This document shows, in pieces, positions 457 to 29,276 of a stretch of 57,972 bases of DNA. The translations under genes and the position numbers were made by a program. Location: positions 1-57,972 of the forward strand of contig PLOR01000049.1 of assembly GCA_003142185.1 (NCBI GenBank). The letters are read 5' to 3'. The notes under the pieces were generated by a model. It was given only the letters and a program-made list of their open reading frames with translations. It was not told the DNA's origin and searched no databases. Each line of letters starts with the position of its first letter. Position 1 is the first letter of the stretch. The DNA comes from Bryobacterales bacterium (GTDB lineage Bacteria; Acidobacteriota; Terriglobia; Bryobacterales; Bryobacteraceae).

Positions 457-465
457 ACCACTACA
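457..465. promoter_or_regulatory. Putative integrase arm-type site
   Basis: ACCACTACA lies at the 3' end of the integrase gene. The same nonamer occurs twice, 12 bp apart, at 46252-46260 and 46264-46272, just inside the opposite end of the element. A related CGCTACAG follows at about 470. The arrangement fits arm-type recombinase binding sites, but no binding data exist. Confidence 0.45.
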
Positions 466-1498: not shown

Positions 1499-1541
1499 GC
1501 TCTAGTGTAGCGGAACACGCTAGTGCGTGTCGACGATCTCG

Positions 1542-1832: not shown

Positions 1833-1883
1833 GCGTTCGGGCCGGAGGTTGACACCGGGGTCGTTGCTGTTTACTACTCCCGG

Positions 1884-2264: not shown

Positions 2265-2336
2265 TGTCCGCCCACTGCGCGACACCCGCTAATGCAAGCA
2301 TCGCGGCGGATCGCGGCTCACCCTAGGAGGCGTGAA

Positions 2337-3880: not shown

Positions 3881-3889
3881 GTTCACGCG

Positions 3890-10700: not shown

Positions 10701-10986
10701 GGCTGGTTCCGCCTTGCCCGATATGCCGCAGCACCCGATACCGGCCTACGATGTCGCCGGCGATCAAGGGTGCGGCAAGTTGTGGGCTTCCCGCCAACTG
10801 TTCCGCCGCGCTGACATCCAGCAGCGAATCGTCGTCCGCGGCCGCGTCGAGCATCTTGAGGATCTGATCGCGCAGTTCTGAATTTCCGCCGCACTCGCGT
10901 TCCAGCAGCACGATCCGCTCTTCCGGACCCAGTTCCAGCGCGTCGGAGAAGATCCCTTTGCACCGGTCCCACTCGATCGAGTTCAT
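7774..10986 (-). CDS. Ser/Thr kinase with TPR region and C-terminal beta-propeller-like domain
   Basis: The 1070-residue protein starts at ATG 10986, which overlaps the sigma-factor TGA. The N-terminal segment (MNSIEWDRCKGIFSDALEL) is typical of acidobacterial sigma-linked kinases. The kinase domain (about 85-360) keeps the glycine loop GQGGTSLVY, Lys in FAIKVI, the catalytic Asp in VVHCDLKPTNIL, DFGIAR and YASPEQ. The Arg of HRD is Cys, so regulation by activation-loop phosphorylation may differ. A membrane segment (LAVVCLIVMLVLGFSSWY) lies at about 392-412. A helical TPR-like region (about 430-770) and repeated beta blades resembling NHL/SMP-30 propellers (about 800-1060) follow and should be periplasmic. 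It may phosphorylate or regulate the partner sigma factor. Confidence 0.88.
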   Translation of the reverse strand: MNSIEWDRCKGIFSDALELGPEERIVLLERECGGNSELRDQILKMLDAAADDDSLLDVSAAEQLAGSPQLAAPLIAGDIVGRYRVLRHIGQGGTSLVYLAEHAGLHSPRRFAIKVIASAFIAGQQERFDRECDILATFEHPNIARIIDKGVTATGWPYLVMDYVDGTPIHNYCFDKKLASPEIVRLILECCRAVQYIHRNLVVHCDLKPTNILVDAGGSPRILDFGIARLIEPDRKTRTGRTTRGIRPLSPNYASPEQLAGAPLTTSTDIYSLGVVLYESLTGTLPFDNPDYPWAQLSQRIAEQPPTPPSKARLKSGATRDDVLFAQYLRGDLDSIVLKTLAHDPKDRYKSVDELSDDLHRYLAGEVVKARRSTRAERAGKLFRRHRRAAAELAVVCLIVMLVLGFSSWYGRRVMRIREAEYVDELRAIINPLILTLPEELPESARARATLADQVSNTIESVSPKVSQHPELVPDLADALLTIADLLGNPYGASLGRVEEARADYHRAFDLVRGRSNARCADIRARVCLGLGDTYSHPALSRDPEEAAEWYHGALGEISPWIGEYPITAALAHSRMGMIYELLGDAGDSSAQYREALRLLPPEKEAKRPLDSALGLVLRAGMEPPAVGVVTYSEAVAALDRLARTGNRNIRIWRAVTGARLSLGLADLQLARMPDAEREFSSAAELAEEAIARDPENLQARRELAIALHRRALIAAKDGAAAESNALRSQATEALRLTMSIPPAGMPDEWADPACTESVERVSEGSSPSRLRAGDLLIANRKAGAVPGKLLAFSQGSLEMNVLASGGYLTDMVDVALASRTEIYVVDRSFSGSGGIVRLRHDAGRWLQKPVTCGGLLRHPAALAYHDGHLILVDADEFSSRLIGVDRETGRQTLLARTESFARPGKIVHSAAGDYYLSLSWPGEGGPAEIVRFDAKTRTFASAARYGHLEDPVALGITLRGDLIVGDREWSGNGWFGEILRIGRGSPGHDGAQTIVCQAPELSRVTAVAVASEREAWYATAAVPYSSLPPSRPRLFKLDLVTGNTVEITISELMVSEGILAAPGAVVPVD

Positions 10987-11549
10987 TCGGGCATGCGCAT
11001 TTCGGTGCGGAACCAAACCCGCGCGACCGTCCAGTCGCGCCGCGCCTGGTCGTAGGAAATGCCCAGCACGACCGCTGCTTCCTCCGTCGTGAGACCGCCG
11101 AAATAACGCAATTCGACGAGCTTCGCCAAGCGGCCATCCCAACCGGACAGCCTAGTGAGAAGCTCGTCCACCGCGATGATATTCTCAATTCGCTGCGCTT
11201 GAAACCCGGGCTCGGGTATCGAATCCAGCGTCAGCACATGCACCGGGTTTCCCCGTTTCAGCGCGCTGCGCCGCCGGGCATGATCCACCAGGATGCGGCG
11301 CATGCTTTGGCAGGCTACCGCCATAAAGTGATTCTTATCGGTCCAGTTAGCGCCATCCTGCTGACACAGCTTTAAGTAAACTTCGTGAATCAGAGCCGTG
11401 GGCTGCAGCGTGCCCCCTCGTTCGCGGCTCATGAGGCGACCGGCTAGCCGCCTCAGTTCCGTATATAACTCAACGATGAGTTGCTGCGACTCTAAAGGAG
11501 CCGCCTGCTCGGGCTGTGAAGACTCGGACTGACCCGCGGGCTCATCCAT
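10983..11549 (-). CDS. ECF-family RNA polymerase sigma factor
   Basis: A 188-residue sigma-70-like protein of the acidobacterial/planctomycete ECF type. Region 2 is visible in LIVELYTELRRLAGRLMSRE and MAVACQSMRRILVDHARRR, and region 4 in VELRYFGGLTTEEAAVVLG with its recognition helix. No anti-sigma gene is adjacent; instead the downstream kinase start overlaps the stop, an arrangement repeatedly seen in this phylum. Kinase control of the sigma is therefore likely but not shown. The ATG at 11549 has only a weak ribosome site. The roughly 250 bp upstream hold the terminator of the preceding gene and presumably the promoter. Confidence 0.92.
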   Translation of the reverse strand: MDEPAGQSESSQPEQAAPLESQQLIVELYTELRRLAGRLMSRERGGTLQPTALIHEVYLKLCQQDGANWTDKNHFMAVACQSMRRILVDHARRRSALKRGNPVHVLTLDSIPEPGFQAQRIENIIAVDELLTRLSGWDGRLAKLVELRYFGGLTTEEAAVVLGISYDQARRDWTVARVWFRTEMRMPE

Positions 11550-14240: not shown

Positions 14241-16268
14241 ATGCCGAGTATCGTCATTCGTCATTTAAGTGGGACGAAAGCCAATCAGGTGGAGGAAATC
14301 CCCCTCCAGGGTTTCCGCGAAGTTCTGATCGGGAGAGAGTCGAACGCTCAAATCCGGTTCGATGCGGATCGGGAAGACCTGGTCAGCCGCAATCACGCCC
14401 GGATCGTTCGTGATCCGGCGGATCCTAACGGGTTCCTGATAACGGACCTGGACAGCCGGAATGGGACGTTCATCAACCGCCATCGTATTTATGGTGCGTC
14501 TCGCTTGCAGCACGGCGACCGTGTACAACTGGGACCATCGGGTCCTGAATTCGTGTTTGAAGTTTCTCCCCCTCCCGCCGCGCCTCCCACGCGGCTCGCG
14601 GAGACCGTGCCTCCGACCCGACTGGCGGAGCCCGCGCCAACCCGGCCGACGGCCGACGCCGTTGGGGGCGGGGCGATGGGCGGAGGCGCTGTGCCTCCGG
14701 GTATGATGCCTGACGCTCCCCGGCCGGTGGGCCGCGCGACGGTCGAGCGGCTGGTCGGCGAAGCAGCTTCTCAGATGAAGGGCGAATCCCGCAAGACCAT
14801 GTGGATCGCCCTCATCGGCATTCTGGTGGTGCTGGGCGCAGGCGCAGGCTATTTCGTTTGGAATCGCAACCAACAGGCGGCGCGGGACTTAGCAGCCAAG
14901 GAGGAGCGGCAGCGGTTGGAACAGTCCTTCCAGCAAAGCGACGCTGCCGCGCGCGACGCCCGGGATCGCCTGGATAAGCTTGCCTACCTGATTGCGAGCG
15001 CTCGTGTCAGCAAGTCGTGGGAGGTCAAAAAGGCCCTTCCGGATCTGCTGGCACAGCAGAATCAGACCGAAAAAGAAGCTCGGGCCGCCGAAGTCATCAG
15101 ATCCGCGGCGGCGATCAGAATCGCCGGGTATGACATTCCGAAGCCGGCCCCCACTGTCGCTTCGGCAGAAATGACGCCCGAGGCGATTGATGCCGCGAAC
15201 GCCAAATCCGTCATCCTGATCGAGGCCACCTGGAAGATCACCGATACGGACACCGGCGGGCAGATCTACCTCTACCATCACCCGAACGACCTGGGAGCCT
15301 GTCCGCAGGTTTCGAAGTCCGAATACCTGCCCATGTTCGTCGAGGACGGTGGCAACCTGAGCCCGGTCCTCTCCACGCTGCCTAACGGAGGCAACAATAC
15401 GCCCATCGTCGGAACCCACTCCGGCACCGGCTTCCTGGTCAGCGGTGATGGCTTTTTCATCACCAACCGGCACGTGCTGGCGCCCTGGCGTGCTACCTGG
15501 AATGTGGCCAGCTTCACCAGGAAAAGCGCCGGGCTCAAGATCAAGAACAACAGCATCGTAGGGTGCCTTTCGGCTGCCGAATTCCCCTCCGAGTGGGTGC
15601 CTTCGGAAGGATCCAAAATGGTGGTGGATAAGATGGAGACCATGGCTGCCGCCGACACCGGCGTCGCCACCACCAGCACCTTCAGCGACCGGCTGCAGTT
15701 CAACCCGCTCAAAACTAGCGTTCAGGGCGAGGCCATCTTCAACGTGACGTTTGCCAAGACCGCGCAGCGGTATCGCGCCACCAGCGTGACGCTGTCGGAA
15801 AAGCACGATGTTGCGCTGGGCAAGGTGGACGTTCCCTCCGCTCAAAGGCCGGTCATCATGTTCAACGACGAGAATCCCATCAACCCAGGCCAGTCAGTGG
15901 TGGTGCTTGGATACCCGGCGGTTTCGGCCGACGTGTTCGCCCTCGACGTTACCCACGACATGTTCACCAACCGGGCGCATCTTTCGGTGATCGCCGACCC
16001 GACCTTGACCGACGGTCCGATCAGCAAAGTGCTGCCCTCCGGCAATGCCATACGCGGCGTGGATGGCTATATCAGCAGCGGCGAAGTCTATCAATTGGGC
16101 ATCAACACCACGGGCGCGGGCAACAGCGGCGGACCGGTGTTCGATTCCAAAGGCCGCGTGATCGCGATCTTTTACGCCGGCCGCACAGCCGGCGGCGCCA
16201 GTGCGACCTTCGCCGTACCCATTAAGTTTGCCAGGGAGTTGATCGATAACAAGCCTGTAATGCAATAG
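14241..16268 (+). CDS. FHA domain - transmembrane - trypsin-like serine protease
   Basis: A 675-residue protein. Residues about 1-105 are an FHA domain with GRESN, the phosphothreonine-binding SRNHARIV and DSRNGTFIN. A Pro-rich linker and one membrane helix (MWIALIGILVVLGAGAGYFV, about 187-207) follow, then a coiled coil (about 210-290). The C-terminal trypsin/HtrA-like protease has the triad His near 411 (FFITNRHVL), Asp523 (KHDVALGKV) and Ser629 (GAGNSGGPV). There is no PDZ domain. The topology puts the FHA domain in the cytoplasm and the protease in the periplasm. The gene heads the plus-strand block, 8 bp before a kinase gene, so it probably reads phosphothreonine made by those kinases. 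AAGGAGG precedes the start. Confidence 0.92.
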   Translation: MPSIVIRHLSGTKANQVEEIPLQGFREVLIGRESNAQIRFDADREDLVSRNHARIVRDPADPNGFLITDLDSRNGTFINRHRIYGASRLQHGDRVQLGPSGPEFVFEVSPPPAAPPTRLAETVPPTRLAEPAPTRPTADAVGGGAMGGGAVPPGMMPDAPRPVGRATVERLVGEAASQMKGESRKTMWIALIGILVVLGAGAGYFVWNRNQQAARDLAAKEERQRLEQSFQQSDAAARDARDRLDKLAYLIASARVSKSWEVKKALPDLLAQQNQTEKEARAAEVIRSAAAIRIAGYDIPKPAPTVASAEMTPEAIDAANAKSVILIEATWKITDTDTGGQIYLYHHPNDLGACPQVSKSEYLPMFVEDGGNLSPVLSTLPNGGNNTPIVGTHSGTGFLVSGDGFFITNRHVLAPWRATWNVASFTRKSAGLKIKNNSIVGCLSAAEFPSEWVPSEGSKMVVDKMETMAAADTGVATTSTFSDRLQFNPLKTSVQGEAIFNVTFAKTAQRYRATSVTLSEKHDVALGKVDVPSAQRPVIMFNDENPINPGQSVVVLGYPAVSADVFALDVTHDMFTNRAHLSVIADPTLTDGPISKVLPSGNAIRGVDGYISSGEVYQLGINTTGAGNSGGPVFDSKGRVIAIFYAGRTAGGASATFAVPIKFARELIDNKPVMQ

Positions 16269-16276
16269 GTCGTTCG

Positions 16277-17686
16277 ATGCCGGGCCTCCCCTTGAACGCC
16301 GTGGTCGGCGGTAAGTACCGGATCGAGAAGCTCGTCGGCGCCGGCGGGATGGGGGAGGTTTATCGCGCGACGGATCTGCAAAAGAGAAGGCCAGTCGCGG
16401 TGAAGGCTCTCACGCTTGCGGGGGAGTCCGGATCCGCGCTGGCCCGTTTCAGGAACGAAGCGGTTATTCAGTGGAGCCTGCACCACCCCAATGTGGCCGA
16501 GCTTTACGAGTATTTCGAATATCAGGGCCGGCCGTGCATCGCGATGGAGTTCGTCGAGGGGCGCGCTCTAAACGAATGGATCCGGGACGCCGGAGCGCTG
16601 GAACCCGCCGATGCCCTCAGGATCCTGGCCGAAATCTGCGATGCGGTTTCTTACATGCATTCGAAAAGCACCATCCATCGCGATATCAAGTCCGAGAATA
16701 TCCGGGTGACCGCCCAAGGCAAAGCCAAGCTGCTCGATTTCGGTATTTCGGTGGCGAAGAACACGCCAGTGCTGACGACCGAGGGCCACACCATCGGAAC
16801 ACCGGGGAAAATGGCGCCGGAGCAGCACGCGGGTTCGCGCGGCGACGCCAGAAGCGACGTCTGGGCGCTGGGCGTGCTGCTCTATGAAATGGTCACGGGA
16901 GCGGCGCCGTTCCCGAACAGCGATCCGACGGGGGTGCGGGACGACGTAACGGCGGCCCGTTACATTCCGGCCGTCAAGCGCAAGCCGAGCCTGCCCAAGC
17001 CGGTGATCAAAATGATCTCCACCTGCCTGCGGCTCAAGCCGGACGAGCGCTACGCTTCGGGCGGGGTGATGCTGCGGGAAGTGCAGCAACTGCGCCGCCG
17101 TCTGACAGGCAACGGGTGGAAGCAGACGCTCTCCTCCAATCCGGCATACGTCGCCGGGGGACTGGCAGTGGCGGTGCTGCTGCTTTTCGCTTACGCGTTC
17201 AGGCCGGCGACGGAAGTCAAGAGTCCGGGCGGGCAAGAGGATCCGAAATCCCAGTCCGTTCCCGCGGAGCCTTCGAGCGGCGCCCCAACCCGGGCTGCCG
17301 ACCCTGCTGATGACGCGTCGGTTCGAACATCGAGCGAGTCGCCGCCGGCGCGTCCCAACCGGGCCTCGGCTGCTCCGCCGATGGCATCCGCTCCGGCGCC
17401 GGCACAGAGCCCAACCAACTCCACCGTGGAGCCGGGCGGAGCGGACCAGAAGACCGTCCGGGTGACCACCTACGACGGGCCGGCCGAAGTAACCAACAGC
17501 GACGGACAAGTACTCGGGCGTACGCCTTATTCTTTGACGGGCCCCTTCGGAAAGAGCTATGAGCTGTGGCTCCGCCGAGAAGGGTTTCAACCGCGAGAGG
17601 TTGACGTGGAGATCAACAACAAGAACGAATATCTTTTTGGCCTGGAAAAGATCGAGGGCCGTCCGGATTTTGGGAAGAAAGAATAA
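16277..17686 (+). CDS. Transmembrane Ser/Thr kinase with PEGA-like periplasmic tail
   Basis: A 469-residue Hanks-type kinase. The catalytic domain (about 8-275) is complete: GAGGMGEVY, Lys in PVAVKAL, HRDIKSENI near 134, DFGIS, GTPGKMAPEQ and the Asp of SDVWALGVLLYEM. A membrane helix (AYVAGGLAVAVLLLFAYAF) lies near 290-310, then a disordered Pro/Ala/Ser linker. The C-terminal domain of about 65 residues (AEVTNSDGQVLGRTPYSLTG) resembles a PEGA domain. The gene is 8 bp after the FHA-protease and 7 bp before the PP2C gene, forming a kinase-reader-phosphatase operon. The canonical active site suggests it is the main writer for the FHA domain, by inference. Confidence 0.92.
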   Translation: MPGLPLNAVVGGKYRIEKLVGAGGMGEVYRATDLQKRRPVAVKALTLAGESGSALARFRNEAVIQWSLHHPNVAELYEYFEYQGRPCIAMEFVEGRALNEWIRDAGALEPADALRILAEICDAVSYMHSKSTIHRDIKSENIRVTAQGKAKLLDFGISVAKNTPVLTTEGHTIGTPGKMAPEQHAGSRGDARSDVWALGVLLYEMVTGAAPFPNSDPTGVRDDVTAARYIPAVKRKPSLPKPVIKMISTCLRLKPDERYASGGVMLREVQQLRRRLTGNGWKQTLSSNPAYVAGGLAVAVLLLFAYAFRPATEVKSPGGQEDPKSQSVPAEPSSGAPTRAADPADDASVRTSSESPPARPNRASAAPPMASAPAPAQSPTNSTVEPGGADQKTVRVTTYDGPAEVTNSDGQVLGRTPYSLTGPFGKSYELWLRREGFQPREVDVEINNKNEYLFGLEKIEGRPDFGKKE

Positions 17687-17693
17687 GGGTCGT

Positions 17694-18683
17694 ATGCCAT
17701 TCTGGGAGAAACTCGTCAGGTTCATGTTCCCGCAAGGGGAAGAAGCGCCAAAGGAAGAGCCCGGAAACGGTCTCGAGGAGACCGGGGACGCGCCGCCGGT
17801 TATCGCCGAGGCGGCGGCCGCCACTCCGGCAGAGAGCGACGAGGCTCCTGCACCCGCTCTGGAATTGGAAATCTGTCTCCAATCCGACCTTGGCTCGGTG
17901 CGCGCCAACAATGAGGACCGCGGCGTTTACGAGCGCCCGAGCGATCCGGAAGTGGCCGCCGCCAAGGGAACGCTGGTGATCGTCGCCGACGGGATGGGAG
18001 GTGCTTCGGCGGGTGAGGTCGCCTCAGAGATGGCCGTGCGCAGCATCCCCGATCATTATTACAACTCCAAGAAGGGTCCGGGCTTGGCGCTCAAAGAAGC
18101 GCTCGAAACGGCCAGCGCGGAAATCCACCTCGCCGCTCAGGAGGATCCGGAGCTGCGCGGAATGGGCACCACCTGCGTGGCCCTGGCGATCCGCACGCCC
18201 GAGCTTTACGCGGCCTGGGTGGGCGACACGCGGCTGTACCTGCTGCGCGACGACGGTTTTTACCAGCTCACCGAGGACCATACCGTGGTTGGCGAGATGG
18301 TGCGCAAGGGCATTATCACCCACGAGCAGGCCCGCAACCATGAAGAGCGCAACGTTCTTTCCCTGTCGATGGGCGGGCGTCCGGAGATTACCGCCTCCTA
18401 TTGGGAAAAACCGATGGTTCTGCGCGGCGGCGACCGCCTGTTGGTGTGCTCGGACGGACTCCACGATCTGGTCGGGGATTTCGAAATGCAGGCCATTATC
18501 GCGGTCACGCCGACTCACCCGGCCGTGCAAAACCTGATCGACGCCGCCAAGCGGAACGGCGGCCACGACAACATCACGGTGGCCTTAGTTCACGTTGTCG
18601 TTCCTAAGACAGAGCCGGAAGCCGGGGAACCAGTTATCGAGGAGGTCCGAGCAACCCGCGAAGTCTCGGTGAATCTGCAATGA
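17694..18683 (+). CDS. PP2C-type Ser/Thr protein phosphatase
   Basis: A 329-residue protein from ATG 17694, with AGGG upstream; an earlier in-frame start overlapping the kinase gene is unlikely. After an acidic, Pro-rich N-terminal region (1-60), the PPM/PP2C motifs appear in order: DLGSVRANNEDRG, VIVADGMGGASAGEVAS, GMGTTCVALAI, AWVGDTRLYLLRDD, LTEDHTVVGEMV, LLVCSDGLHDLV and GGHDNITVALV. All metal-binding Asp residues are present. It is cytosolic and should reverse phosphorylation by the neighbouring kinases. Its stop overlaps the next kinase's start (ATGA), indicating coupled synthesis. Confidence 0.95.
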   Translation: MPFWEKLVRFMFPQGEEAPKEEPGNGLEETGDAPPVIAEAAAATPAESDEAPAPALELEICLQSDLGSVRANNEDRGVYERPSDPEVAAAKGTLVIVADGMGGASAGEVASEMAVRSIPDHYYNSKKGPGLALKEALETASAEIHLAAQEDPELRGMGTTCVALAIRTPELYAAWVGDTRLYLLRDDGFYQLTEDHTVVGEMVRKGIITHEQARNHEERNVLSLSMGGRPEITASYWEKPMVLRGGDRLLVCSDGLHDLVGDFEMQAIIAVTPTHPAVQNLIDAAKRNGGHDNITVALVHVVVPKTEPEAGEPVIEEVRATREVSVNLQ

Positions 18684-21600
18684 TTCGCTCCGTCGGCAGC
18701 TACCAGCTCCTGGAACAACTCGGCGAGGGGGGGATGGGGGCGGTTTACCGCGCCATCGACACCCAACTCGACCGCGAAGTGGCCCTGAAAGCCCTTCGCC
18801 CGGAACTGGCGCGCCGTCCGGATATCGTCGCCCGTTTCCGCGAGGAGGCGCGGATTCAGGGGCGCCTCGAGAGCGCCCACATCGTGCGCCTTTACCAGTT
18901 CCTGCGCGAGGGCGACGAATATTTCATGGTGATGGAGTTCGTTCGGGGCGCCACGCTTTCCCGGATGTTGTCGGAAAGGAAGCGGCTGACGATCGATTCC
19001 GCCATCTCCATCATGGTGCAGGCGCTGGACGGGCTGGACTACGCGCACGGACGTAACATTGTGCACCGGGACATCAAGCCCGCCAACATCATCATCAGCC
19101 AGGAGGGCGTGGTCAAGGTCACCGACTTCGGCATCGCCCGGTTACTGGGATCGGCGCGCATGACCAGGGAGGGCAGCCTCATCGGCACCCTGGAATATAT
19201 TTCGCCGGAGGCCGCACAGGGAAAAGACGCCACCGCGCTGTCCGATATCTACTCCAGCGGCGTCGTGCTCTACGAGCTGCTCACCGGCCGCTTGCCCTTC
19301 AGTAGCCAGAACGACTACGAACTGGTGCGGATGCAGATTCAAAGCTCTCCACCGGCTCTACGCGGCTGGGTGCCCGACATTTCACGTGCGCTGGAGAGCG
19401 CCGTATTGCGGGCCCTCGCCAAGAAGCCGCAGGACCGTTACGGGAACGCGGCTGAGATGTCCCGTGCGCTGAGCGAGTGTGTGCAAATGCCCGCCGCCGG
19501 CTCGGCCGGCCCGGAGTCGTTCTGGAGCAAGCTGCGGTCGCTAGCCTCGCCCGCCGCATCCGGCGCCACTCCGCGGCCTGTGTTCGGCAACCTGTCGCCG
19601 CTACCGCTGCCACAGGACACCTCGGATCTAGAGAGGGAGCGCCGGAGCGCGATCTCTTCGCTCAGCCGGCGCGTGGACGAACTTCTGGGCCAGGGGAACT
19701 GGGAGCAGGCGCAGAGCGAGGTGAACCGGTCGAGCGCGCAGTTTCCAGGCGACCCCGCGGTTCTGGAACTGCACAACCGGGTGGTCCGCGAGCAGCGCAC
19801 CCACGCGGAGGGGCTCGCTCTGGCGCTGAACGAAGGGCGGAGCCTGCTGGAACGCGGTCTGCCGGAGCTCGCGCGGACCGCCGTCGAGAGTTCCCTCCGC
19901 CGCTACCCGAACAGCGTCGAACTGGGAGACCTGTTGCGGCAGGTCGAGGAGCAGCTCTCGGCGCTTGCGGCGGGTTCTTCGCAGGTGAAGGTCATCACCC
20001 GCCAAGTAGAGGAATTGAAGCAACAGGAACGATTTCAGGAGGCCATCAACCTGATTATCGAGGCGGTGGCGCAACTGCCGAACCGCCCGGAACTGACTGC
20101 CTTGCTGAGCGGGACCGTGCAGGCGCAAAAGGAGCGTGAGAAGGCGAGAGCAGTCGAGGCCTGCCGGGAGCGGGTGTCGTCGCTACGGCAATCGGCCAAC
20201 TGGACGGCGGCGATGGAGGCCATCGACAGCCTGCTGGCTCAATATCCCGGCGAACTACCCCTGCTGCAACTTCGCGCCGAGGTGGAAAGCGAACGGCAGG
20301 TCCGGCTGCGGGCCGCGGAGGTGGAATCGAGCATCCATCGTGCCCGGGAACTGGAGTCCAACGGACAGATTGAGGCCGCCGAGGGCGTGCTCCAGGAGGC
20401 GCTGCGGCGATTTCCAGACGAAGGCGCCCTGGCAAGGGCATTGACCGGCGTCCGAGCCGTGCGGGAAGCAGGGCGGCGGAGCGTCATCGCCGGTGCGGCC
20501 ATCGAACGGGCCCGGGAGCTACAGGCGGAGCATCAGTGGGATACCGCTCTCGACGTGCTGAACGCGGCCCTCCGCGATGCACCCGGTGAAGAACGGCTCG
20601 AACGTCAGCGGGCCGAGGCGGTGCAGGTGCGGGTGAAATCGATGCTCCGGGAAGCCGACGATCTGGTGACCCGCCAGCGGATCGATCAGGCGTCGTGGCT
20701 GCTGGAATCGGCGGCACGTCTCGATCCGGGCAATCCCGCGGTTCGGGATCGCCTGGCAGGGATCGCCACTGCCGGCCGTCGGGACCGCATTCAACAGATT
20801 CTGCAAAAGGCCTCCGAACAACACACCGCCGGCGACTACGCCGGGGCGATGGCGCTTCTTGAATCTCTTCCGCCGGCGGAGGCCGCGGCGAGCGAAGTTC
20901 TCGCGTTGCGCAACCGCATCGACCGGGATGGCTCGGAGTCTGCGCGCCAGCTCCGCGCGCGGGAACTAGCCGCAGCCGTTGCCGCCGCGCAGTTGCTAAT
21001 CGGCCAAGGCAACTTGCGGTCCGCCCAGTCCTCGCTGGAAGACTTGCACGCGAAGTATCCGGAGGAACCGAAAGTCCGGGAGTTACTGGAGGACGTGAAA
21101 AAATGCATCGGCGCGGCTGATAGTCTGCGTGCCGTGGCTGCTATCCGCGCCGAAGCGGCGGCACTTATACGGGCCGGCCGGACTTCCGATGCCCGGGCGG
21201 CACTGCAACGCGGATTGCTCTCGTATCCCCGCGAGGCCGAACTAATGCGTCTCCTCGAGGGGACTGCGCCGCCGGAACCGAGCCAGATACCGGAGACCAG
21301 AGAAGAGCCCGCCAGCCGGCCTCCACAACCGGAAGGACCCGGCCCGGCCGTGAGCGTGCTCAAGCCGACGCCGCGGAGGCTGTGGTACATCGGCGCAGCA
21401 GCCGCGATAGTGACCCTCATACTCTGCGCTGGCGTAGCTATCCTCCTGCGCCATCCGGCAGCGACCCACCCGGCACTCAAAGCGGCAGATGTAACGCCGG
21501 TGCAGCCCCTTTTGAATCCGGACGGCGAGCAGGCGGCGCTTCCCCCGTCTCAGCCGGAGCCTGTCATCGACAGATTCACTGCCGATTCGCAGCGAATCGA

Positions 21601-23149
21601 ACCGGGACAGGGAGTCTGGCTACGCTGGTCCGTGAGCAACGCAAGTGGGGTCACCATTGAGCCCGGGATTGGTAAGGTCGAGCCGAGCGGCGCCCGGTTC
21701 GTGCATCCGGCTGTAGCGACAACCTACTCGCTCTTGGCCCGAGGGGCCGGCAAACCCAGCGAGCAGCACGTGACTGTGGAGATGACCGGCACCCAGGCTC
21801 AGCCGAAGCCCCTCATCAACAACTTCTATGCCTACCCGACGACAGTGGAAAGAGGGCAGACCGCGACGCTTCACTGGCAGGTGAGTAACGCGACGAGTGT
21901 CACGATTGATCCGGGAATCGGGGAGGTGAGGCCTGAAGGCTCACGCCTGGTTTTCCCGACGGATGCGCAAACCTACGTCCTTTCTGCGTCAGGCCCGGGT
22001 GGCACCAATACGCAGATCCTGATGGTTGACGTGACGGCTCCGCAGGCCGTGACTCATCCGGCCGTTTCGGTTCCGCAGGCTCGGTCCGAGCCCATCATCC
22101 ACGATTTTACCGCCGTACCGTCCCACCTCAATAGCAACGGTGGCACAGCAATGCTCTCCTGGTATGTGGATAACGCTACGGAGGTGACCATTGAACCCGG
22201 GATCGGCACCGTTGAGGATGTCGGACATTGGGACGTCGTTCTGAGGGCGACCACCACTTACACGCTCCTTGCGACTGGACACGGCTACACCCACAAGCGA
22301 GAGGTAACTATTGAAGTAACGCCGCCTGCGGACCTGGCCGCTGTGATGGCCCAGGCTAGAGATAAATACGCCAGCAGAGATTTCACGGCCGCGGCAACTC
22401 TTTTCCGCCAGGCGGCAGAGGGCGGCAACGCGGAGGCCATGCTCTCTCTCGGCTACCTCCTGGATGGGGGACTCGGAGTTCATGCCGACGCCTCTGAAGC
22501 GATGGTGTGGTACCGGAAAGCGGCCGACGCCGGTAACGTAGCTGCCATGTTGGGTCTGGGCAGGTTGGGCGCAAAGGCCCATGACTGGGCCTCGGCACAC
22601 AAGTGGTGGGCCAAGGCCGCCGATGCGGGCAACGGAGTGGCGATGGGTAACCTCGGTTTTCTCTATGAGCAGGGTCTGGGAGTGACCGCTGACAGGGACG
22701 AGGCAATAGCTTGGTACAAGAGGGCTGTGCAAGCGGGACACGTCGGTTCGCAGAGCGACCTGAATCGGGTTGAGGCTAATCAAGCCGATCAATCCAGCCC
22801 TACACTCACGAAGCGCACCGCGACGAAGGCAACGAAGGTCACGAAGGCCACCAAGAGGGTATTGCCAGAGCCGGGTTCTTGGCCCGGTTCGTTCCAGGGC
22901 ACCGTATGGGGCCCTGACGGAAAGCCAGTAGCGGGCGCGACTGTTCGGATCGAACAGCAAGGCACGACAAATCGATGGGACGTAGTAACGGATTCCGCGG
23001 GGCACTATTCTCAAGGTGAATTGCCCAGCGGCATTTACTGGTTCTGGGCATGGTTATGGCAGCCGGGAAAAGTGTCTCATGGAAAAGCGCTAAAAATCCT
23101 CGCACTCAGTCCGGGTCAGACAGTGACCGTTGATTTCAAGGCAAAGTGA
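18680..23149 (+). CDS. Giant transmembrane Ser/Thr kinase with TPR-like, Ig-like and Sel1 regions
   Basis: A 1489-residue protein. The kinase domain (about 5-270) is complete (GEGGMGAVY, VALKAL, HRDIKPANI, DFGIAR, GTLEYISPEA). Residues about 310-880 are degenerate TPR-like helical repeats of about 75 residues. A membrane helix lies at about 899-921. The periplasmic part has three Ig-like repeats (about 955-1215), each with a VTIEPGIG or VTIDPGIG turn, then Sel1 repeats (about 1220-1370, for example AMVWYRKAADAGNVAAM) and a carboxypeptidase-regulatory-like beta domain (about 1405-1489). It starts within the PP2C stop codon. The long cytoplasmic repeats probably recruit substrates, while the periplasmic part senses or binds envelope components. 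These roles are inferred. Confidence 0.9.
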   Translation: MIRSVGSYQLLEQLGEGGMGAVYRAIDTQLDREVALKALRPELARRPDIVARFREEARIQGRLESAHIVRLYQFLREGDEYFMVMEFVRGATLSRMLSERKRLTIDSAISIMVQALDGLDYAHGRNIVHRDIKPANIIISQEGVVKVTDFGIARLLGSARMTREGSLIGTLEYISPEAAQGKDATALSDIYSSGVVLYELLTGRLPFSSQNDYELVRMQIQSSPPALRGWVPDISRALESAVLRALAKKPQDRYGNAAEMSRALSECVQMPAAGSAGPESFWSKLRSLASPAASGATPRPVFGNLSPLPLPQDTSDLERERRSAISSLSRRVDELLGQGNWEQAQSEVNRSSAQFPGDPAVLELHNRVVREQRTHAEGLALALNEGRSLLERGLPELARTAVESSLRRYPNSVELGDLLRQVEEQLSALAAGSSQVKVITRQVEELKQQERFQEAINLIIEAVAQLPNRPELTALLSGTVQAQKEREKARAVEACRERVSSLRQSANWTAAMEAIDSLLAQYPGELPLLQLRAEVESERQVRLRAAEVESSIHRARELESNGQIEAAEGVLQEALRRFPDEGALARALTGVRAVREAGRRSVIAGAAIERARELQAEHQWDTALDVLNAALRDAPGEERLERQRAEAVQVRVKSMLREADDLVTRQRIDQASWLLESAARLDPGNPAVRDRLAGIATAGRRDRIQQILQKASEQHTAGDYAGAMALLESLPPAEAAASEVLALRNRIDRDGSESARQLRARELAAAVAAAQLLIGQGNLRSAQSSLEDLHAKYPEEPKVRELLEDVKKCIGAADSLRAVAAIRAEAAALIRAGRTSDARAALQRGLLSYPREAELMRLLEGTAPPEPSQIPETREEPASRPPQPEGPGPAVSVLKPTPRRLWYIGAAAAIVTLILCAGVAILLRHPAATHPALKAADVTPVQPLLNPDGEQAALPPSQPEPVIDRFTADSQRIEPGQGVWLRWSVSNASGVTIEPGIGKVEPSGARFVHPAVATTYSLLARGAGKPSEQHVTVEMTGTQAQPKPLINNFYAYPTTVERGQTATLHWQVSNATSVTIDPGIGEVRPEGSRLVFPTDAQTYVLSASGPGGTNTQILMVDVTAPQAVTHPAVSVPQARSEPIIHDFTAVPSHLNSNGGTAMLSWYVDNATEVTIEPGIGTVEDVGHWDVVLRATTTYTLLATGHGYTHKREVTIEVTPPADLAAVMAQARDKYASRDFTAAATLFRQAAEGGNAEAMLSLGYLLDGGLGVHADASEAMVWYRKAADAGNVAAMLGLGRLGAKAHDWASAHKWWAKAADAGNGVAMGNLGFLYEQGLGVTADRDEAIAWYKRAVQAGHVGSQSDLNRVEANQADQSSPTLTKRTATKATKVTKATKRVLPEPGSWPGSFQGTVWGPDGKPVAGATVRIEQQGTTNRWDVVTDSAGHYSQGELPSGIYWFWAWLWQPGKVSHGKALKILALSPGQTVTVDFKAK

Positions 23150-23276: not shown

Positions 23277-26200
23277 ATGAGCTGGAACGTCAAAAATTAC
23301 CAGATCCACCATACCCTCGGCAAGGGTGGGATGGGCACGGTGTACTACGCGGTGGACGCGCAGTTGCACCGCGAAGTGGCGCTCAAGTGTCTGCGGCCGG
23401 AGGTGGCCAATAACCCTGGCGTGCTGGAGCGGTTCCGCAAGGAAGCCCAGGCGCAGGCGAAGCTCAATCATCCGAATATCGCCCAGATCTGGGAGTTTTT
23501 CCAGGTAGGAAACGAACACTACCTGGCCATGGAGTTCATCGACGGTCCGACCCTGTCGCGGGTCCTGCGCGAGAAAGGACGCCTGCCTTACGAAGAAGCC
23601 GCCGGCTATGCAATTGAGATGCTGCGGGGCCTGGACCACGCGCACAAACAGGAGATCGTGCACCGCGACATCAAGCCGGCCAATCTGATGATCGACAAAG
23701 GCAATCACGTAAAAGTGACCGACTTCGGGATCGCCCGAGTGCGCGGCGCAAGCCGCGACACCCGCGATGGCATGATCATCGGCACCTACGAATACATCTC
23801 GCCGGAAGCCGCCCAGGGGTTGGAGGCCACCGCCCTCTCCGACGTGTATTCGATGGGGGTGGTGCTGTTCGAGATTCTGACGGGGCGTCTGCCATTCGAG
23901 AGCCGGAACGAATTCGAGTTGTTGCGGCTGCATATCCAGGCCCCCCGGCCGAGCGTGCGGTCGATCGTCAAAGACTTGCCGGCAGCCGTGGACGACATCG
24001 TCGAGCGGGCGATGGACCGGAGGGCGGGGAGAAGGTTTCGCTCGGCCGCGGAGATGGCCGATGCGCTGCAGAGATGTCTGGACAGCGGCCAGCGGCTGAG
24101 CGCGACCGGCAGGTGGCGGCGCCTTTTGTTCGCCGGCGGCGAGACGGCGCGCGAAACCCCCACTCCGCCGCCCGCCATCGAGGAACGTCGGCGCACCGAT
24201 ATTTCCTCCACCTGCCACCGGGTGGAGGATCTGCTCGAGCAGCACCTCTTCAACGAGGCCGGCTCGGTGCTGGATGCCGGCTTCCGCATCCACCCCGACG
24301 AGCCCGACTTCATCGACCTCCGCAACCGGTTGCAGCGCCAGCGCCAGCAATACGAGCAGGCCGTCACACAGCAGACGGAACTGATTCGCGATCTCCTGAA
24401 CCGCGGCCTCTCCGAAGAAGCACTGAAGGTGGCGGGCAACGCCCTCACGATGTATCCTCGGGCCGCCGCTCTCGCCGATTTGCAGCACGAGTGCCGTCGG
24501 CGCGCCGATCTGGCCAATGCCGCGGTGGGCGAGTTGGCCCAGGTTCAAGGCCGGGTGGACGAGATGATTGCGGCCGGCCAGTTTCAGGAGGCCACCGACT
24601 ACGTCCTGGAATTGCTCACCGTCCATGAGAACCAGATCGAGCTGAATAAGCTGCTGGCGCGCATTCTGCAAGCCCGCAAGGATGCCGAGAAGCAAGCCGC
24701 CATCGCGCAGTGCGTGACCGACGCCGGCCGGGCGGCCGACGCCGGGGAATGGGAGCCGGCGCTGGTGATCGTGGACAGCGGCCTGGAGCGTTTTCCGGGC
24801 GATACCAAGCTACAGGCTTTCCGGCAGGCGTTGAGCGGCCGTTGGCAGGCTGAGCGGAGACGCCGTGCGGTGGAGGCGGCAATCGCAGAAGCTCGCGACC
24901 TGGAGGTTTCGACTTCCTTGCGGGCGGCCAGGGACCGGCTGACCAAGGATCTCGACGCGTTGGAGCGAGATCCGACCCTGGTCCGGGAACTGGATCGTAT
25001 TGACGCCGCCCTGGAGGGCGCCCGGCGCGATTCGAGCATCGCGAGCGCGGTTTCGGCGGCGGCGGCGTTGCGAAGCGAGCGGAAATGGCAGGATTCGCTC
25101 GATCTGCTCGACCGGACGGCGGCGCGGGAGGGCCGCGACACGCGTATCGACGCGCTGCGCATCACCGTGGCCGCCGAACTGCGCGCCCACGAAGCGCTGG
25201 TGGCGCGCACCAGCGCCGCCGCGCGCCAGAGCATCCAGAATCTCCAATGGGAAGAGGCGGTGCTGGGCCTGTCGACCGCCATGCGCGACATGCCCGGTGA
25301 GCGGATACTCAACGACCTGATGCAGGAGGCGCAGCGGGGCCTGGCGCAGAAGCGCCGCGGCGAGACCATCGCGCGCATCAAGGCGGAGGCCGAGCAGCGT
25401 GCGGGTGCGCGCAATTATTCGGAGGCGATCCGCTTGCTACTGGACGCCGTATCCCAATACCCGGAGGATGCCACCCTTAGCGCCGCCTTGAGCCAGACCA
25501 TATTCGAACGCGACACCTATATCGAGGGCGAGAAAACCAAAGCCGCACTGGAACGGGCGGCCAGGCTGCGCAGCGAGTCCCGTTTCGAGGAGGCTATCGA
25601 GGCTCTGCTGGAGACCATTTGGGAGTTGCCCGGGAATCGGGAATTGCAGAACGCCCTGTCGAGACTGGAGAGCGAGTGGCGCGAGATTCGCCGGCGCGCC
25701 GCCATCGTGGACATCACCGCCGTGGTGGAAGCGAGCCTTGCGGCGGAGAACTATCAGCCTGCACTGGACAGGCTGGCCCGGGGACTCGCCGAATGGCCCG
25801 GCGAGCCGGAGCTGCTGGAGCTGGAACGCCGTACCCGCACCAGCCAACGCCAGCAGCAGGCGCGCGAAGCTTTGCGCGAAGCGATCGAGAAGGGCAGCAC
25901 GCTGGAAGCCGCGGAACACTGGGACACCGCCGCGCAAGTGTACGAACGGACGCTGGCCGCGTTCCCCGAGACCGCCTCCGAACTGGAACCGCGCATCGCC
26001 GCGGCGCGCGCACGGGCGGTGGAGGCGCAACGCAAAGCCCGCATCGCGGAGCTGGAACACAGCCTTGCCGGATGGTTCGAAGCCGGTCTGATCGAGGAAG
26101 GGGAAAAAGAGCTACGCGGCGGCGAAAACGAGTTCCCCGGCGAAGCCGGCTTTGCGGCTTGGCGGGAGAAGATCGCCGCCGAGCGACAGAGGATCGCCCG

Positions 26201-29200
26201 TGAGGCGGCCATCCGAAACGCCATGGAACGGGCGCGGTGGCTGGCGGAGCGCCAAGCCTTCGACGAAGCCGAGAGCATTCTCACGGACGCGGAACGCGAC
26301 TGTGGACCAGATGCCGCGCTGGGCGATCTGCTGAAGACGGTCCAAGCCGCCAAACGCGAGCGGGTGGCCGCAATCGAGGCGGCGATCGTCCGGATGCAGG
26401 CTCTTTTCGATGCACGCGATTGGGACGGCGCGATTTCGGCCGCGCTGCGAAATACCGAACAGTTTCCAGGCGAAGCCCGTTTTCGAGCGCTTCTGACGGA
26501 GGGGCGGCAGAAGCGCGACCTGGAAAGACGGGCCATCGAGCTCGATCGCCGAATTTCCCGGATCGACGCGCTACTCGGTGAAAACGCCTTTGACGATGCG
26601 GAAACTCTCATCCGCAACTCCCTCCGCGACTACCCGGGCAAAGCCGCCCTGGAGGAACGGAAACAGCGGCTGGAAGAGCGTCGCCGCGCGCAAGCTCTGG
26701 AAGCCGCGTTCCGAAAATCGGTGAGCGAGGTGGAGCGGCTGCGTGGCGAGCGGCAGTGGCAGCAGGCAAAACAACTCGCCACGCCGTACCTGGATCATCC
26801 GCAAACCCGACCGGCGGCCAAGGCATTGCTGGCCGAGATGGCCAAGCAGGAGGCTCAATACCGCGCCCGGGCCAGCAAGTTGATGAAGCGTGCGCGCGGC
26901 CTGATGGATTGCCAGCAGCACACCGAGGCCTTGACTCTGCTGGAGGCGGCAGTAGTGGAGTTCCCCGAGATTGGGATGTTCGCGAATATGTTGGTTGAGA
27001 TCCGCGAAGGCGCGGCGGCGGCGCAGCGAGCGGAACGGCTGAGCTCGGCGGAGCGCACTATTCGGTCGTTGCTGGCCGGCCAGAAGTACGAGGAAGCCCT
27101 GAAGGAAGCCGATGGAGTGCTGGGCGCGTATCCCGACGAAAAAGTATTCCGCGATCTGCGGACCCTGAGCGGAGCCGGCATGCGGGACCAGTCCGCAGTC
27201 GCCGCTTTGACCGGCCGGGTAGAGCAACTGCTCGCGTCGGGCGAAGGGACCAACGCGGACCGGACATTGGTGGAAGCGCTGCGGCAGTATCCGGCCCGGA
27301 TGGAGTTGGAGAAACTGCGTCCGGCGGTAGATGCGGCGCGGAAGGCGGAGTGGGAGCACAAGGCGCGGGAGGCCGGGCTGAAGCGGGCGATTGCCGGAAT
27401 CGAAAAACTGCTCGGGCAGGCGAAACTGGCGGAAGCCGGGGCAGCACTGGCAGCGCTTGAGAAGGAGTATGGCGAGGGTGCGGCACCGGAAGTAGCGAAG
27501 CGCGTCGCTGACACGGTGGCGGAGACCGAGCGGCAGGGCCTGGCGGCGGAGGAGCGGGAGCGGCAGCGGCGGGAAGCCGGGCTGAAGCGTGCGATTGGCG
27601 GGGTCGAGACGCTGCTGGCGCAAGGGAAGCTGGTGGAAGCCGGCGGGGCGTTGGCGGCACTGGAGACCGAGTGCGGCGCGGGAGCGGCGCCGGAAACGGC
27701 GAAGCGCGTTGCCGATGCCGTAGCGGAAGCCGAGCGGCAGCGCGTGGCGGCCGAGGATCGGGAGCGGCGGCGGCGGGAAGCCGGGCTGAAGCGCGGGATT
27801 AGCGGAATCGAAACCTTGCTGGCGCAAGGGCAACTAGCGGAAGCCGGCGCAGCGTTGGCGGCGCTGGACGCGGAGTATGGCGCGGGAGCGGCGCCGGAAA
27901 CGTCGGAACGCGTCGCCGCGGCGATTGCGAAAGCCGAGCGAGAGCGCGTGGCGGCGGAGGAGCGGGAGCGGCAGTGGGAAGCCGAGCGGCAGAAGCAAGC
28001 GCTGGATGCTTTCGATGCGGCGTTTCGCGAATCCGCGGCCGAAGTAGGACGGTTGTGCCGCGAGCGGCAGTTCCAGCAGGCCCGGCAACTGGTCACGCCG
28101 TACCTGGATCACCCGAAAACACGCCCTTCAGCCGAAGTGGTGCTGGCTGAACTGGTCCAGCAGGAAGCCCAGCACGATGAGCGGATCCGCGATCTGGAGA
28201 AGCAAGCGCGCACCCTGATCGGCGCAAAACGACACCAAGAGGCTGCGACGCTGCTCGAAATCGCGGCCAGCGACTTCCCGGAAAGCGCGGAACTGCCTCA
28301 CTTGCTTGCGGAAACACGCGCGGGCCAGTCAGCGGAGCAGAAGGCTCAAAGCTTGGGCGCCGCCGAGCGCAGCATCCGATCGCTGCTGGCCGAACAGCGG
28401 ATCGAGAAGGCGCTCCAAGCGGCCGACGCAGCCCTGGTTGAGTATCCGGCTGAGGCGACGGTCGAGGGTCTACGGGCGCGGATCGTGGCCGCCATCGCGG
28501 AAAAGGCGGCGGTATCCAGCGAAGCCGGAGATGTGCAGCGGTCGCTCGCAAGCGGAAACGCTGCCAGGGCAGACCAGATGCTGGTGGAGGCGCTACGGCG
28601 GCATCCCGGCCGTATGGAGTTGGAGAAACTGCGCGCGGCGGTGGATGCTGCGCGGAAAGCGGAGTGGGAGCACCAGGCGCGGGAAGCCGCTCTGAAGCGT
28701 GCGATTTCCGTCATCGAGAGACTGCTGGTGGAAGGGAAGCCGTCGGAAGCCGGCGCCGCACTGGCGGCGCTGCAGCAGGACTACGGCGATGGGGTGGCGG
28801 CGGAGTTGGCACAACGCGTAGACGTGGCCATAGCGGAAGCCGAAAGGCAGCGTCTGGCGGCTGAGGAACGAACGCGCGAGGCCGAGCGGCGGCGCCTGGC
28901 GGTGGAGGAAGAGCGGAACCGGCAGTTGGAGGCCGAGCGGCAGGCGAAAGCGATGGAGACGGCGTTCCGCCGGTCCGTGGGAGAGGTGGCACGGTTGTGC
29001 CGCGAGCGGCGCTTCGAGCAGGCGCGGCAACTCGTCGAACCGTACCTGGACCATCCGAAAACCCAGCCATCCGCCAAGGCAGTGCTCGCCGAAACCGTCA
29101 AGCAGGAAGCGCAATACCACGCCCGCATCCACGATCTGGAGGAGCAGACGCGCATTCTGATCCGGGACGGACAGAAACCGAAGGCGGCGGCGCTGCTCGA

Positions 29201-29276
29201 TCGGGCAGCCATCGAGTTTCCCGAAGTCGGGGAATTCCGGCGTCTCATGGGGGAACTGCGCGAGGGCGGGATATGA
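23277..29276 (+). CDS. 1999-residue Ser/Thr kinase with very long helical repeat region
   Basis: The kinase domain (about 5-275) is complete: GKGGMGTVYY, VALKCL, HRDIKPANL near 128, DFGIAR, GTYEYISPEA. It is closely similar to the kinase domain of the preceding gene, so the pair arose by duplication. Residues about 300-1999 are helical repeats of about 75 residues with TPR-like spacing. The last third contains long near-identical repeats (see 26706-29273). No membrane segment or signal peptide is visible, so it should be cytosolic, unlike its neighbour. The ATG at 23277 lies 127 bp after the previous stop, with no strong ribosome site seen. It is probably a kinase scaffold. Assembly errors in the repeats should be excluded. 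Confidence 0.88.
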   Translation: MSWNVKNYQIHHTLGKGGMGTVYYAVDAQLHREVALKCLRPEVANNPGVLERFRKEAQAQAKLNHPNIAQIWEFFQVGNEHYLAMEFIDGPTLSRVLREKGRLPYEEAAGYAIEMLRGLDHAHKQEIVHRDIKPANLMIDKGNHVKVTDFGIARVRGASRDTRDGMIIGTYEYISPEAAQGLEATALSDVYSMGVVLFEILTGRLPFESRNEFELLRLHIQAPRPSVRSIVKDLPAAVDDIVERAMDRRAGRRFRSAAEMADALQRCLDSGQRLSATGRWRRLLFAGGETARETPTPPPAIEERRRTDISSTCHRVEDLLEQHLFNEAGSVLDAGFRIHPDEPDFIDLRNRLQRQRQQYEQAVTQQTELIRDLLNRGLSEEALKVAGNALTMYPRAAALADLQHECRRRADLANAAVGELAQVQGRVDEMIAAGQFQEATDYVLELLTVHENQIELNKLLARILQARKDAEKQAAIAQCVTDAGRAADAGEWEPALVIVDSGLERFPGDTKLQAFRQALSGRWQAERRRRAVEAAIAEARDLEVSTSLRAARDRLTKDLDALERDPTLVRELDRIDAALEGARRDSSIASAVSAAAALRSERKWQDSLDLLDRTAAREGRDTRIDALRITVAAELRAHEALVARTSAAARQSIQNLQWEEAVLGLSTAMRDMPGERILNDLMQEAQRGLAQKRRGETIARIKAEAEQRAGARNYSEAIRLLLDAVSQYPEDATLSAALSQTIFERDTYIEGEKTKAALERAARLRSESRFEEAIEALLETIWELPGNRELQNALSRLESEWREIRRRAAIVDITAVVEASLAAENYQPALDRLARGLAEWPGEPELLELERRTRTSQRQQQAREALREAIEKGSTLEAAEHWDTAAQVYERTLAAFPETASELEPRIAAARARAVEAQRKARIAELEHSLAGWFEAGLIEEGEKELRGGENEFPGEAGFAAWREKIAAERQRIAREAAIRNAMERARWLAERQAFDEAESILTDAERDCGPDAALGDLLKTVQAAKRERVAAIEAAIVRMQALFDARDWDGAISAALRNTEQFPGEARFRALLTEGRQKRDLERRAIELDRRISRIDALLGENAFDDAETLIRNSLRDYPGKAALEERKQRLEERRRAQALEAAFRKSVSEVERLRGERQWQQAKQLATPYLDHPQTRPAAKALLAEMAKQEAQYRARASKLMKRARGLMDCQQHTEALTLLEAAVVEFPEIGMFANMLVEIREGAAAAQRAERLSSAERTIRSLLAGQKYEEALKEADGVLGAYPDEKVFRDLRTLSGAGMRDQSAVAALTGRVEQLLASGEGTNADRTLVEALRQYPARMELEKLRPAVDAARKAEWEHKAREAGLKRAIAGIEKLLGQAKLAEAGAALAALEKEYGEGAAPEVAKRVADTVAETERQGLAAEERERQRREAGLKRAIGGVETLLAQGKLVEAGGALAALETECGAGAAPETAKRVADAVAEAERQRVAAEDRERRRREAGLKRGISGIETLLAQGQLAEAGAALAALDAEYGAGAAPETSERVAAAIAKAERERVAAEERERQWEAERQKQALDAFDAAFRESAAEVGRLCRERQFQQARQLVTPYLDHPKTRPSAEVVLAELVQQEAQHDERIRDLEKQARTLIGAKRHQEAATLLEIAASDFPESAELPHLLAETRAGQSAEQKAQSLGAAERSIRSLLAEQRIEKALQAADAALVEYPAEATVEGLRARIVAAIAEKAAVSSEAGDVQRSLASGNAARADQMLVEALRRHPGRMELEKLRAAVDAARKAEWEHQAREAALKRAISVIERLLVEGKPSEAGAALAALQQDYGDGVAAELAQRVDVAIAEAERQRLAAEERTREAERRRLAVEEERNRQLEAERQAKAMETAFRRSVGEVARLCRERRFEQARQLVEPYLDHPKTQPSAKAVLAETVKQEAQYHARIHDLEEQTRILIRDGQKPKAAALLDRAAIEFPEVGEFRRLMGELREGGI
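26706..29273 (+). repeat. Long intragenic repeats in the giant kinase
   Basis: Three successive modules begin with AFRKSVSEVERLRGER (26706), AFRESAAEVGRLCRER (about 28019) and AFRRSVGEVARLCRER (28963). Each continues into an AxQL...PYLDHP segment and a second helical unit; the third stops at the protein end. Between the first and second are three tandem units of about 68 residues starting REAGLKRAI or REAGLKRGI, and a fourth similar unit follows in module two. DNA similarity is high enough to see by eye, which implies recent expansion. Confidence 0.85.

Follow-up and report, generated by a model that had tools for sequence, protein, structure and literature searches.

A conserved FHA-protease operon with a common Thr-Arg motif as a candidate module for outward phospho-signalling

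A contig of a Bryobacterales bacterium (PLOR01000049.1, analysed here over all of its 57,972 nucleotides, "the window") encodes a protein that joins an FHA domain to a serine protease, and raises the question of whether such a protein could pass a cytoplasmic phospho-signal outward to proteolysis, as was originally predicted from the DNA alone. The anatomy behind that prediction holds for the window protein. Pfam placed an FHA domain (residues 28-98, E 1.9e-17) and a trypsin-like domain (Trypsin_2, residues 395-643, E 1.1e-18) in one protein, both above their gathering scores. The predicted single membrane helix corresponds to the one strong hydrophobic stretch, residues 187-206, with a mean KD hydropathy of 2.19; the runner-up (1.54) lies within the protease. 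The His-Asp-Ser triad is intact (His411, Asp523 and Ser629), and the claimed lack of a PDZ domain agrees with the absence of any Pfam PDZ match at E<=0.1 and with a C-terminus (residue 675) just past the protease. The model for the YscD cytoplasmic domain (Yop-YscD_cpl) scored 25.9 bits, below its gathering score of 33.2.

An AlphaFold2 model of the protein reached a mean pLDDT of 79.5, with a confident FHA domain, pLDDT below 50 for nearly all of residues 117-188, and a protease part mostly of high pLDDT with a weak loop at 464-484. Relatives L094, L097, L106, L110 and L113 were not in the underlying 39-row alignment, which makes its "invariant" columns look better conserved than they are. 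Helices 186-256 and 260-294 run through the membrane segment into a coiled coil, in line with the coiled coil of the original prediction, but this part does not stand as a family trait: a long coiled coil is missing from the six relatives aligned first, and stalk length varies across the family. In a Foldseek search with the protease model, the best 50 of 692 matches were almost all HtrA/Deg proteases, including DegS without its PDZ domain (3lgi; TM-score by target 0.72), HtrA1 (0.70-0.76) and Deg1. The protein misses the NCBIfam cut-offs for TIGR02037 (42 versus 416.2 bits), DegS (16.6 versus 422.95) and MarP (29.2 versus 250).

Table 1. Features of the FHA-protease operon in the window
Feature	Coordinates	Strand	Basis or remark
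FHA-TM-HtrA-type protease, 675 aa	14241..16268	+	ORF, Pfam FHA and Trypsin_2, AlphaFold2 model
FHA domain, residues 28-98; R32, S49, H52, N74 and G75 all present	14322..14534	+	
Disordered linker with three Thr-Arg motifs (T117-R118, T126-R127, T134-R135)	14589..14645	+	
Juxtamembrane G-R-A-T-V-E-R, residues 164-170, including T167	14730..14750	+	
TM helix (predicted), residues 187-206	14799..14858	+	Hydropathy, AlphaFold2 helix
Helical/coiled-coil stalk, residues 207-294, length lineage-specific	14859..15122	+	AlphaFold2
HtrA-fold serine protease domain, residues 313-668	15177..16244	+	Pfam, AlphaFold2, Foldseek
His411 codon (catalytic)	15471..15473	+	
Asp523 codon (catalytic)	15807..15809	+	
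Ser629 codon (catalytic)	16125..16127	+	
Kinase Kb: Ser/Thr kinase, TM about residues 290-308, PEGA-like part beyond	16277..17686	+	
PP2C phosphatase	17694..18683	+	Start 17694 likely; ORF opens 17559
Thr-Arg motif, PP2C C-terminal tail (VRATREVSVNLQ)	18654..18659	+	
Kinase Kc: Ser/Thr kinase with TPRs, TM at 21380-21448	18680..23149	+	Pfam
Thr-Arg T162-R163, Kc activation loop	19163..19168	+	
Thr-Arg T873-R874, just before Kc TM helix	21296..21301	+	
Possible extra member: a long-repeat Ser/Thr kinase without a clear TM	23277..29276	+	

A single-protein scan of the genome contigs found no relative; an alignment scan of named genomes found 51 loci, mostly in Acidobacteriota, with others in Gemmatimonadota, Accumulibacter, Armatimonadota, a Desulfobacteraceae MAG and one genome labelled Actinomycetota (the last two, L115 and L116, matched in the protease part only). 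The nearest relative, L066 from an uncultured Acidobacteriia bacterium, is 71% identical. Within the window's order, 16 of 257 genomes reach E<=1e-100 (a hand count; G145 matches in two frames), and the one other genome of the same genus that was examined has no match at that level. In a phylum-wide sample, 16 of 396 genomes match at 1e-40, some of them partially. This patchy spread suggests that the module is accessory and has frequently been lost or moved.

For residue counts we took the window and the 51 loci and kept 44 full-length rows (490 aa or longer), leaving out the broken or cut L080, L098, L103, L104, L112 and L114 together with the protease-only L115 and L116. Adding L159, L184, L186, L188-L191 and L193 gave 52 rows. 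The search for FHA-TM-peptidase fusions that had been proposed as a check thus ended in 52 aligned full-length members, with kinase and PP2C neighbourhoods recurring. Near-copies were kept (for example L083/L090, L102/L105/L106 and L074/L084/L088), and the counts given below are not independent because many members are closely related.

The prediction had also placed writer and eraser genes beside the protein, and the adjoining interval 16277-23149 does contain, by Pfam, a kinase (Kb), a PP2C phosphatase and a second kinase (Kc). The phosphatase matches Pfam PP2C_2 at 3.4e-15 and NCBIfam Stp1_PP2C_phos at 4.9e-64, scoring 216 bits where the cut-off is 230. The PEGA-like part of Kb has a Pfam E of 0.0026, under the gathering score; sub-threshold PEGA matches also occur in L068 and L073, and none is listed in L085 or L074. 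In L066, the kinase that occupies the Kc position looks, by eye, more like the possible extra member in Table 1 than like Kc.

The same arrangement recurs across the family, usually in the order FHA-protease, often Kb, then PP2C and Kc. Downstream sequence of 3 kb or more was available for 38 full-length loci, the window not included and L070, L081, L086, L089 and L109 falling short of this length. PP2C lies downstream in 37 of the 38, a kinase in 37 (allowing a 4-base overlap in L107) and both in 36; the exceptions are L107, without PP2C, and L113, without a kinase. A kinase stands before PP2C or is fused to it in 26 loci, with Kb and PP2C sharing one ORF in L072, L095 and L103, and none precedes PP2C in the other 12. 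When 37 neighbourhoods (the window among them, seven near-duplicates removed) were compared all against all, an ECF sigma factor, on either strand, appeared in 11; no other recognisable recurring gene was found in the 14 largest clusters.

Several further features lie around these operons. In the window, an ECF sigma factor (PF07638) sits next to a Ser/Thr kinase with TPRs at 7774-11549 on the minus strand. The interval 461-6646, which carries a phage-type integrase, a ParA-like protein (by eye) and a TrwC-type relaxase, is an integrative or conjugative element a few kilobases from the operon. At 43811-44809 is a protein reminiscent, by eye, of an AbiEii-type nucleotidyltransferase toxin. Elsewhere in the same genome, a second cluster (G000:C86:21466-29764, L151) combines a kinase and PP2C with two FHA domains, and in L034 genes that read like type III secretion or flagellar export components lie divergently upstream of the FHA-protease (L034:2724-8016).

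The residues expected of a phosphothreonine reader and of a working protease are both well conserved. In the FHA pocket, Arg, His and Gly are present in 44/44 rows and Asn in 42/44, so that the family appears to carry the pThr-pocket pattern of FHA readers. Position 49 is Ser in 22 rows, including the window, as it is in Rad53 FHA1 according to an extract of the published account (PMC5549992). The same position is Gly in 21 of the 44 and Ala in one, and phosphopeptide affinity may therefore vary among members. In the protease, the catalytic His, Asp and Ser are present in 41, 41 and 43 of the 44 rows, and the triad is intact in 47 of the 52, suggesting that catalysis is normally kept.

The catalytic His is replaced by Arg in L094 and by Asn in L113, the Asp is replaced by Asn in L109, and all three triad residues are substituted in L110; L097 has an alignment gap at the catalytic Asp. 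The tree pairs L094 with L113 as sisters and places L109 and L110 on long branches of unsure position, giving three lineages with substituted triads. Among the 52 rows, the juxtamembrane Thr167 is missing only in L094, L110 and L113, and the FHA residue Asn74 only in L094 and L113; Thr117 is also missing in L110 and L113. L109 keeps Thr167 despite its Asp-to-Asn change. (A GxxT pattern search also missed L108 and L109, where the alignment shows Thr167 retained.) Thr167 was thus lost in two of the three lineages, and this joint loss of cytoplasmic residues and triad residues suggests, with L109 deviating, a functional link across the membrane.

The linker between FHA domain and membrane proved to hold a conserved motif. 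Within window residues 107-185, the only columns conserved at 70% or above are D107, P110, P112, two Thr-Arg (TR) pairs and GKATVER. T117 is found in 49 of 52 rows and R118 in 51 of 52, the L092 exceptions at these positions looking like a one-residue alignment shift; T167, within the G-K-A-T-V-E-R that adjoins the membrane helix, is likewise found in 49 of 52. Of 51 TR-bearing linkers, 50 have their first TR 10-13 residues past the F106 position. In the smaller set, TR occurs in 43 of 44 linkers, in 82 copies, where 1000 shuffles gave a mean of 12.9 and a maximum of 25. Ser never substitutes for T117 or T167 in the 52 rows, and linkers contain 97 occurrences of TR[LIVMEQDA] against a single SR. 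The near absence of Ser at the motif Thr would fit a reader that discriminates for pThr, such as an FHA domain. In a small control of other FHA proteins, of which only seven were recognised, two contained TR, none the strict form and none GKATVER, numbers too small to carry weight.

The same motif recurs in the phosphatase and in Kc. In the last 25 residues of operon PP2Cs it mostly takes the form TRE followed by a hydrophobic residue, and it is present in 24 of 38 tails (mean 5.2 and maximum 12 in 2000 shuffles; L081 and L086 removed for a contig end or wrong frame, L080 included from outside the 44). A larger PP2C set had TR in 30 of 45 tails and lacked it in 15. Within the window's order, 6 of 15 operon tails have TR and 9 do not, versus 1 of 25 non-operon PP2Cs; these controls came from 31 ORFs in 32 loci, minus one operon PP2C (L217) and five with at least 150 residues after the match.

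In the kinases, TR occupies the activation loop of 43 of 49 Kc proteins, compared with 5 of 29 Kb proteins and 5 of 23 other own-genome kinases. Ser/Thr kinases of this kind usually autophosphorylate on a Thr of the activation loop, and with TR in the Kc loop the motif therefore looks like a Kc phosphorylation target. Between kinase domain and membrane helix, the strict form TR[LIVM][AGV] is present in 19 of 41 Kc proteins, a set that includes ORFs of doubtful start (L072, L100) whose "linker" spans a kinase domain. It is present in 0 of 29 Kb proteins and in 1 of 22 other kinases of the window genome (L130, picked out by eye). In a fixed 180-residue Kc stretch it occurs in 20 of 41 (500 shuffles: mean 1.7, maximum 6). 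Any TR occurs in 31 of 41 Kc linkers (69 in 7206 residues; 10 without), in 10 of the 22 other kinases (19 in 2902 residues) and in none of the 29 Kb linkers, a zero partly helped by their shortness (1294 residues in all). For the Kc linker the loose motif is thus weak evidence; what sets Kc apart from other kinases there is the strict form alone. In the window copy, TR appears three times in the linker, as VRATREV in the tail of PP2C, as MTREG in the activation loop of Kc and as ETREE near the Kc membrane helix; its Kc linker lacks the strict form, its coiled coil is unusually long and its Kc is very large.

Next to the membrane, the window protein is ambiguous by the positive-inside rule, with four Lys/Arg residues on either side of the helix. 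Across the 44 members, Lys/Arg are in excess on the FHA side in 34, equal in 6 and fewer in 4, and net charge is higher on that side in 26, equal in 13 and lower in 5. A hydrophobic stretch (mean KD 1.33-2.94) separates linker and protease in 44/44. Taken over the family, these values point to an N-in/C-out orientation, with the FHA domain cytoplasmic and the protease extracytoplasmic.

We propose that the FHA-protease is the reader and effector of a dedicated Ser/Thr-phosphorylation module, in which Kc would mark TR sites, the FHA domain would dock on them and the protease would be gated outward, and we give this proposal about even chances of being right. Domain order, triad, operon and common TR motif can be read in the sequence; from them we infer phosphorylation, FHA binding, topology, clustering, gating and the direction of signalling. 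The targets of Kc would be the TR motifs of the FHA-protease linker, of the PP2C tail and of the juxtamembrane linker of Kc itself. The resulting phosphothreonines would serve the FHA domain as docking sites in its own linker, in neighbouring copies, in Kc and in PP2C, and this docking would cluster the proteins at the inner membrane. PP2C would strip the marks, its own tail keeping it within the complex. Assembly, or a rearrangement of the juxtamembrane GKATVER, would be relayed through the membrane helix to the HtrA-fold protease outside, with the coiled coil also part of the relay in the window lineage. As the protein has no PDZ domain, we propose that its gating comes from the cytoplasm instead. 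We read the TR sites and T167 as probable Kc phosphosites and probable FHA ligands. The predicted passage of a phospho-signal from inside to outside proteolysis fits the anatomy, the conservation of FHA and active-site residues, the predicted topology and the kinase/PP2C neighbourhood, its direction above all being conjectural; the common TR motif would make the phospho-link more specific than had been proposed.

Signalling could also run the other way. The HtrA-like domain might be a sensor or ectodomain regulator that binds or cleaves either an envelope ligand or the outer part of one of the two kinases, Kb or Kc, with the FHA domain merely keeping phosphorylated kinase beside the protease while the signal travels inward. 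We consider this unlikely, if the most serious of the alternatives. The membrane helix of the window Kb, with its PEGA-like part beyond, would suit such a route, as would the partners that triad-poor members retain (PP2C and kinase in L094 and L110, PP2C in L113), as if binding sufficed, and the different C-terminal part of L164. Yet nine of the twelve loci without a kinase before PP2C have an intact triad, and the general retention of the triad suggests that catalysis, not binding alone, is normally kept.

It is similarly improbable, in our estimate, that the FHA domain only parks a constitutively active protease at envelope phospho-clusters, with no conformational signal through the membrane. 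Tethering would be served well by the long disordered linker and by a stalk whose length is not fixed in the family; however, the near-constant spacing of the first TR and the conserved GKATVER at the membrane suggest more than a tether, and the joint loss of the juxtamembrane Thr and triad residues in two lineages also speaks for coupling.

Membership in a T6SS threonine-phosphorylation pathway (PpkA/PppA/Fha) or in an anti-phage defence module we regard as very unlikely. Kinase, PP2C and FHA do co-occur here, the window genome has a VipA-type T6SS gene, and the PADLOC hits include the protease portion of an RT-protease model (E 1.5e-12) and many kinase models. The VipA matches are on contig C42, outside the window, and a Pfam scan of 15 window proteins found zero T6SS or reverse transcriptase families; we rejected the defence module, and the T6SS pathway as far as the window is concerned, and the ECF sigma factor (11 of 37 neighbourhoods) is the sole other recognised recurring neighbour in the 14 largest clusters. 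Least credible of all is that the trypsin-like domain cleaves at the TR motifs, everything lying on the same side of the membrane, a reading invited by the Arg of the motif and the name Trypsin_2 and rejected because the residue six before Ser629, which we take to be the position of trypsin Asp189 at the base of the S1 pocket, is Ser in 30, Thr in 12 and Ala in 7 of 52 rows (49 of 52) and never the Asp of Arg/Lys-specific trypsins, because the hydrophobic stretch separates linker from protease in all 44 members, and because cleavage leaves the conservation of Thr unexplained.

Relatives with other architectures were also found. L164:486-1865 encodes an FHA domain, TR motifs, GRATVERM and a membrane helix followed by a non-protease end (a weak TPR match, E 0.0089); PP2C and two kinases follow this gene. 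Among relatives of the FHA part, with membrane helices assigned by eye, L198:4878-7073 is FHA-TM-NHL propeller, L197:6993-8111 is FHA-TR-FHA-TM and L196:7261-9060 is kinase-FHA-TR-FHA. The members with substituted triads and L164 would count against a purely proteolytic reading of the family. Returning to phospho-dependent gating, a broader version of it, somewhat short of even chances, is a self-contained inside-out device in which one kinase writes a Thr-Arg code on its own activation loop and tail, on the phosphatase and on the membrane-spanning FHA reader, FHA-pThr assembly switches the protease outside, and the outward effector is exchangeable; this exchangeability draws on the protease here, the other part in L164 and the NHL propeller on a related FHA domain in L198.

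Known regulated proteolysis over bacterial membranes mostly brings envelope signals inward. If our proposal is true, a protease gated by cytoplasmic pThr would let Ser/Thr kinases act directly on the envelope. Moreover, a Thr-Arg motif common to writer, eraser and reader yields single-residue predictions, for T117, T167, the PP2C tail Thr and the Kc linker Thr.

DegS is a single-TM, N-in protease that faces outward. The FHA-protease is like DegS and HtrA in its modelled fold (by Foldseek) and its His-Asp-Ser triad, and differs from them in having no PDZ match and in the FHA domain and phosphosite-like linker that it carries on what is presumably its cytoplasmic side. Overall, known parts (Hanks kinases, PP2C, FHA and the HtrA fold) stand in a conserved arrangement that we did not find described: among the papers listed in our literature search, mostly confined to those outside subscription, none described the FHA-protease module or its Thr-Arg motif. 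The comparisons that follow draw on extracts of the cited papers. In these, conflict-system studies present FHA and trypsin solely as alternative effector domains (PMC7159879, PMC8195603). A 2008 survey gives one Bacteroides thetaiotaomicron protein, NP_811686, the architecture FHA-FHA-trypsin (PMC2605481); its FHA domains are likewise N-terminal to a trypsin-family domain, but there are two of them, and the extract gives the architecture with no operon, motif, topology or mechanism. In Bdellovibrio DgcB, an FHA domain reads the protein's own phosphorylated tail, where the +3 residue Val17 matters, and so controls a fused enzyme (PMC6733907). Recognition of a phosphorylated segment of the same protein would be shared with the FHA-protease; the fused enzyme of DgcB is a diguanylate cyclase (GGDEF), its tail is N-terminal and no TM relay is described in the extract (PMC6733907). 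Mycobacterium tuberculosis Rv1747 forms FHA-linker condensates with kinase PknF and phosphatase PstP (PMC9312465). It too is a membrane protein with FHA, a disordered linker and kinase/phosphatase control, with two FHA domains and an ABC transporter instead of a protease as effector (PMC9312465, PMC5549992). In the T6SS, Fha binds pThr14 of the membrane protein TssL, so that PpkA, PppA and Fha likewise constitute a kinase, a phosphatase and an FHA reader acting on an inner-membrane protein (PMC3953482); the window, where the 15 proteins scanned include no T6SS gene, differs in that its module joins reader and effector in one membrane protease.
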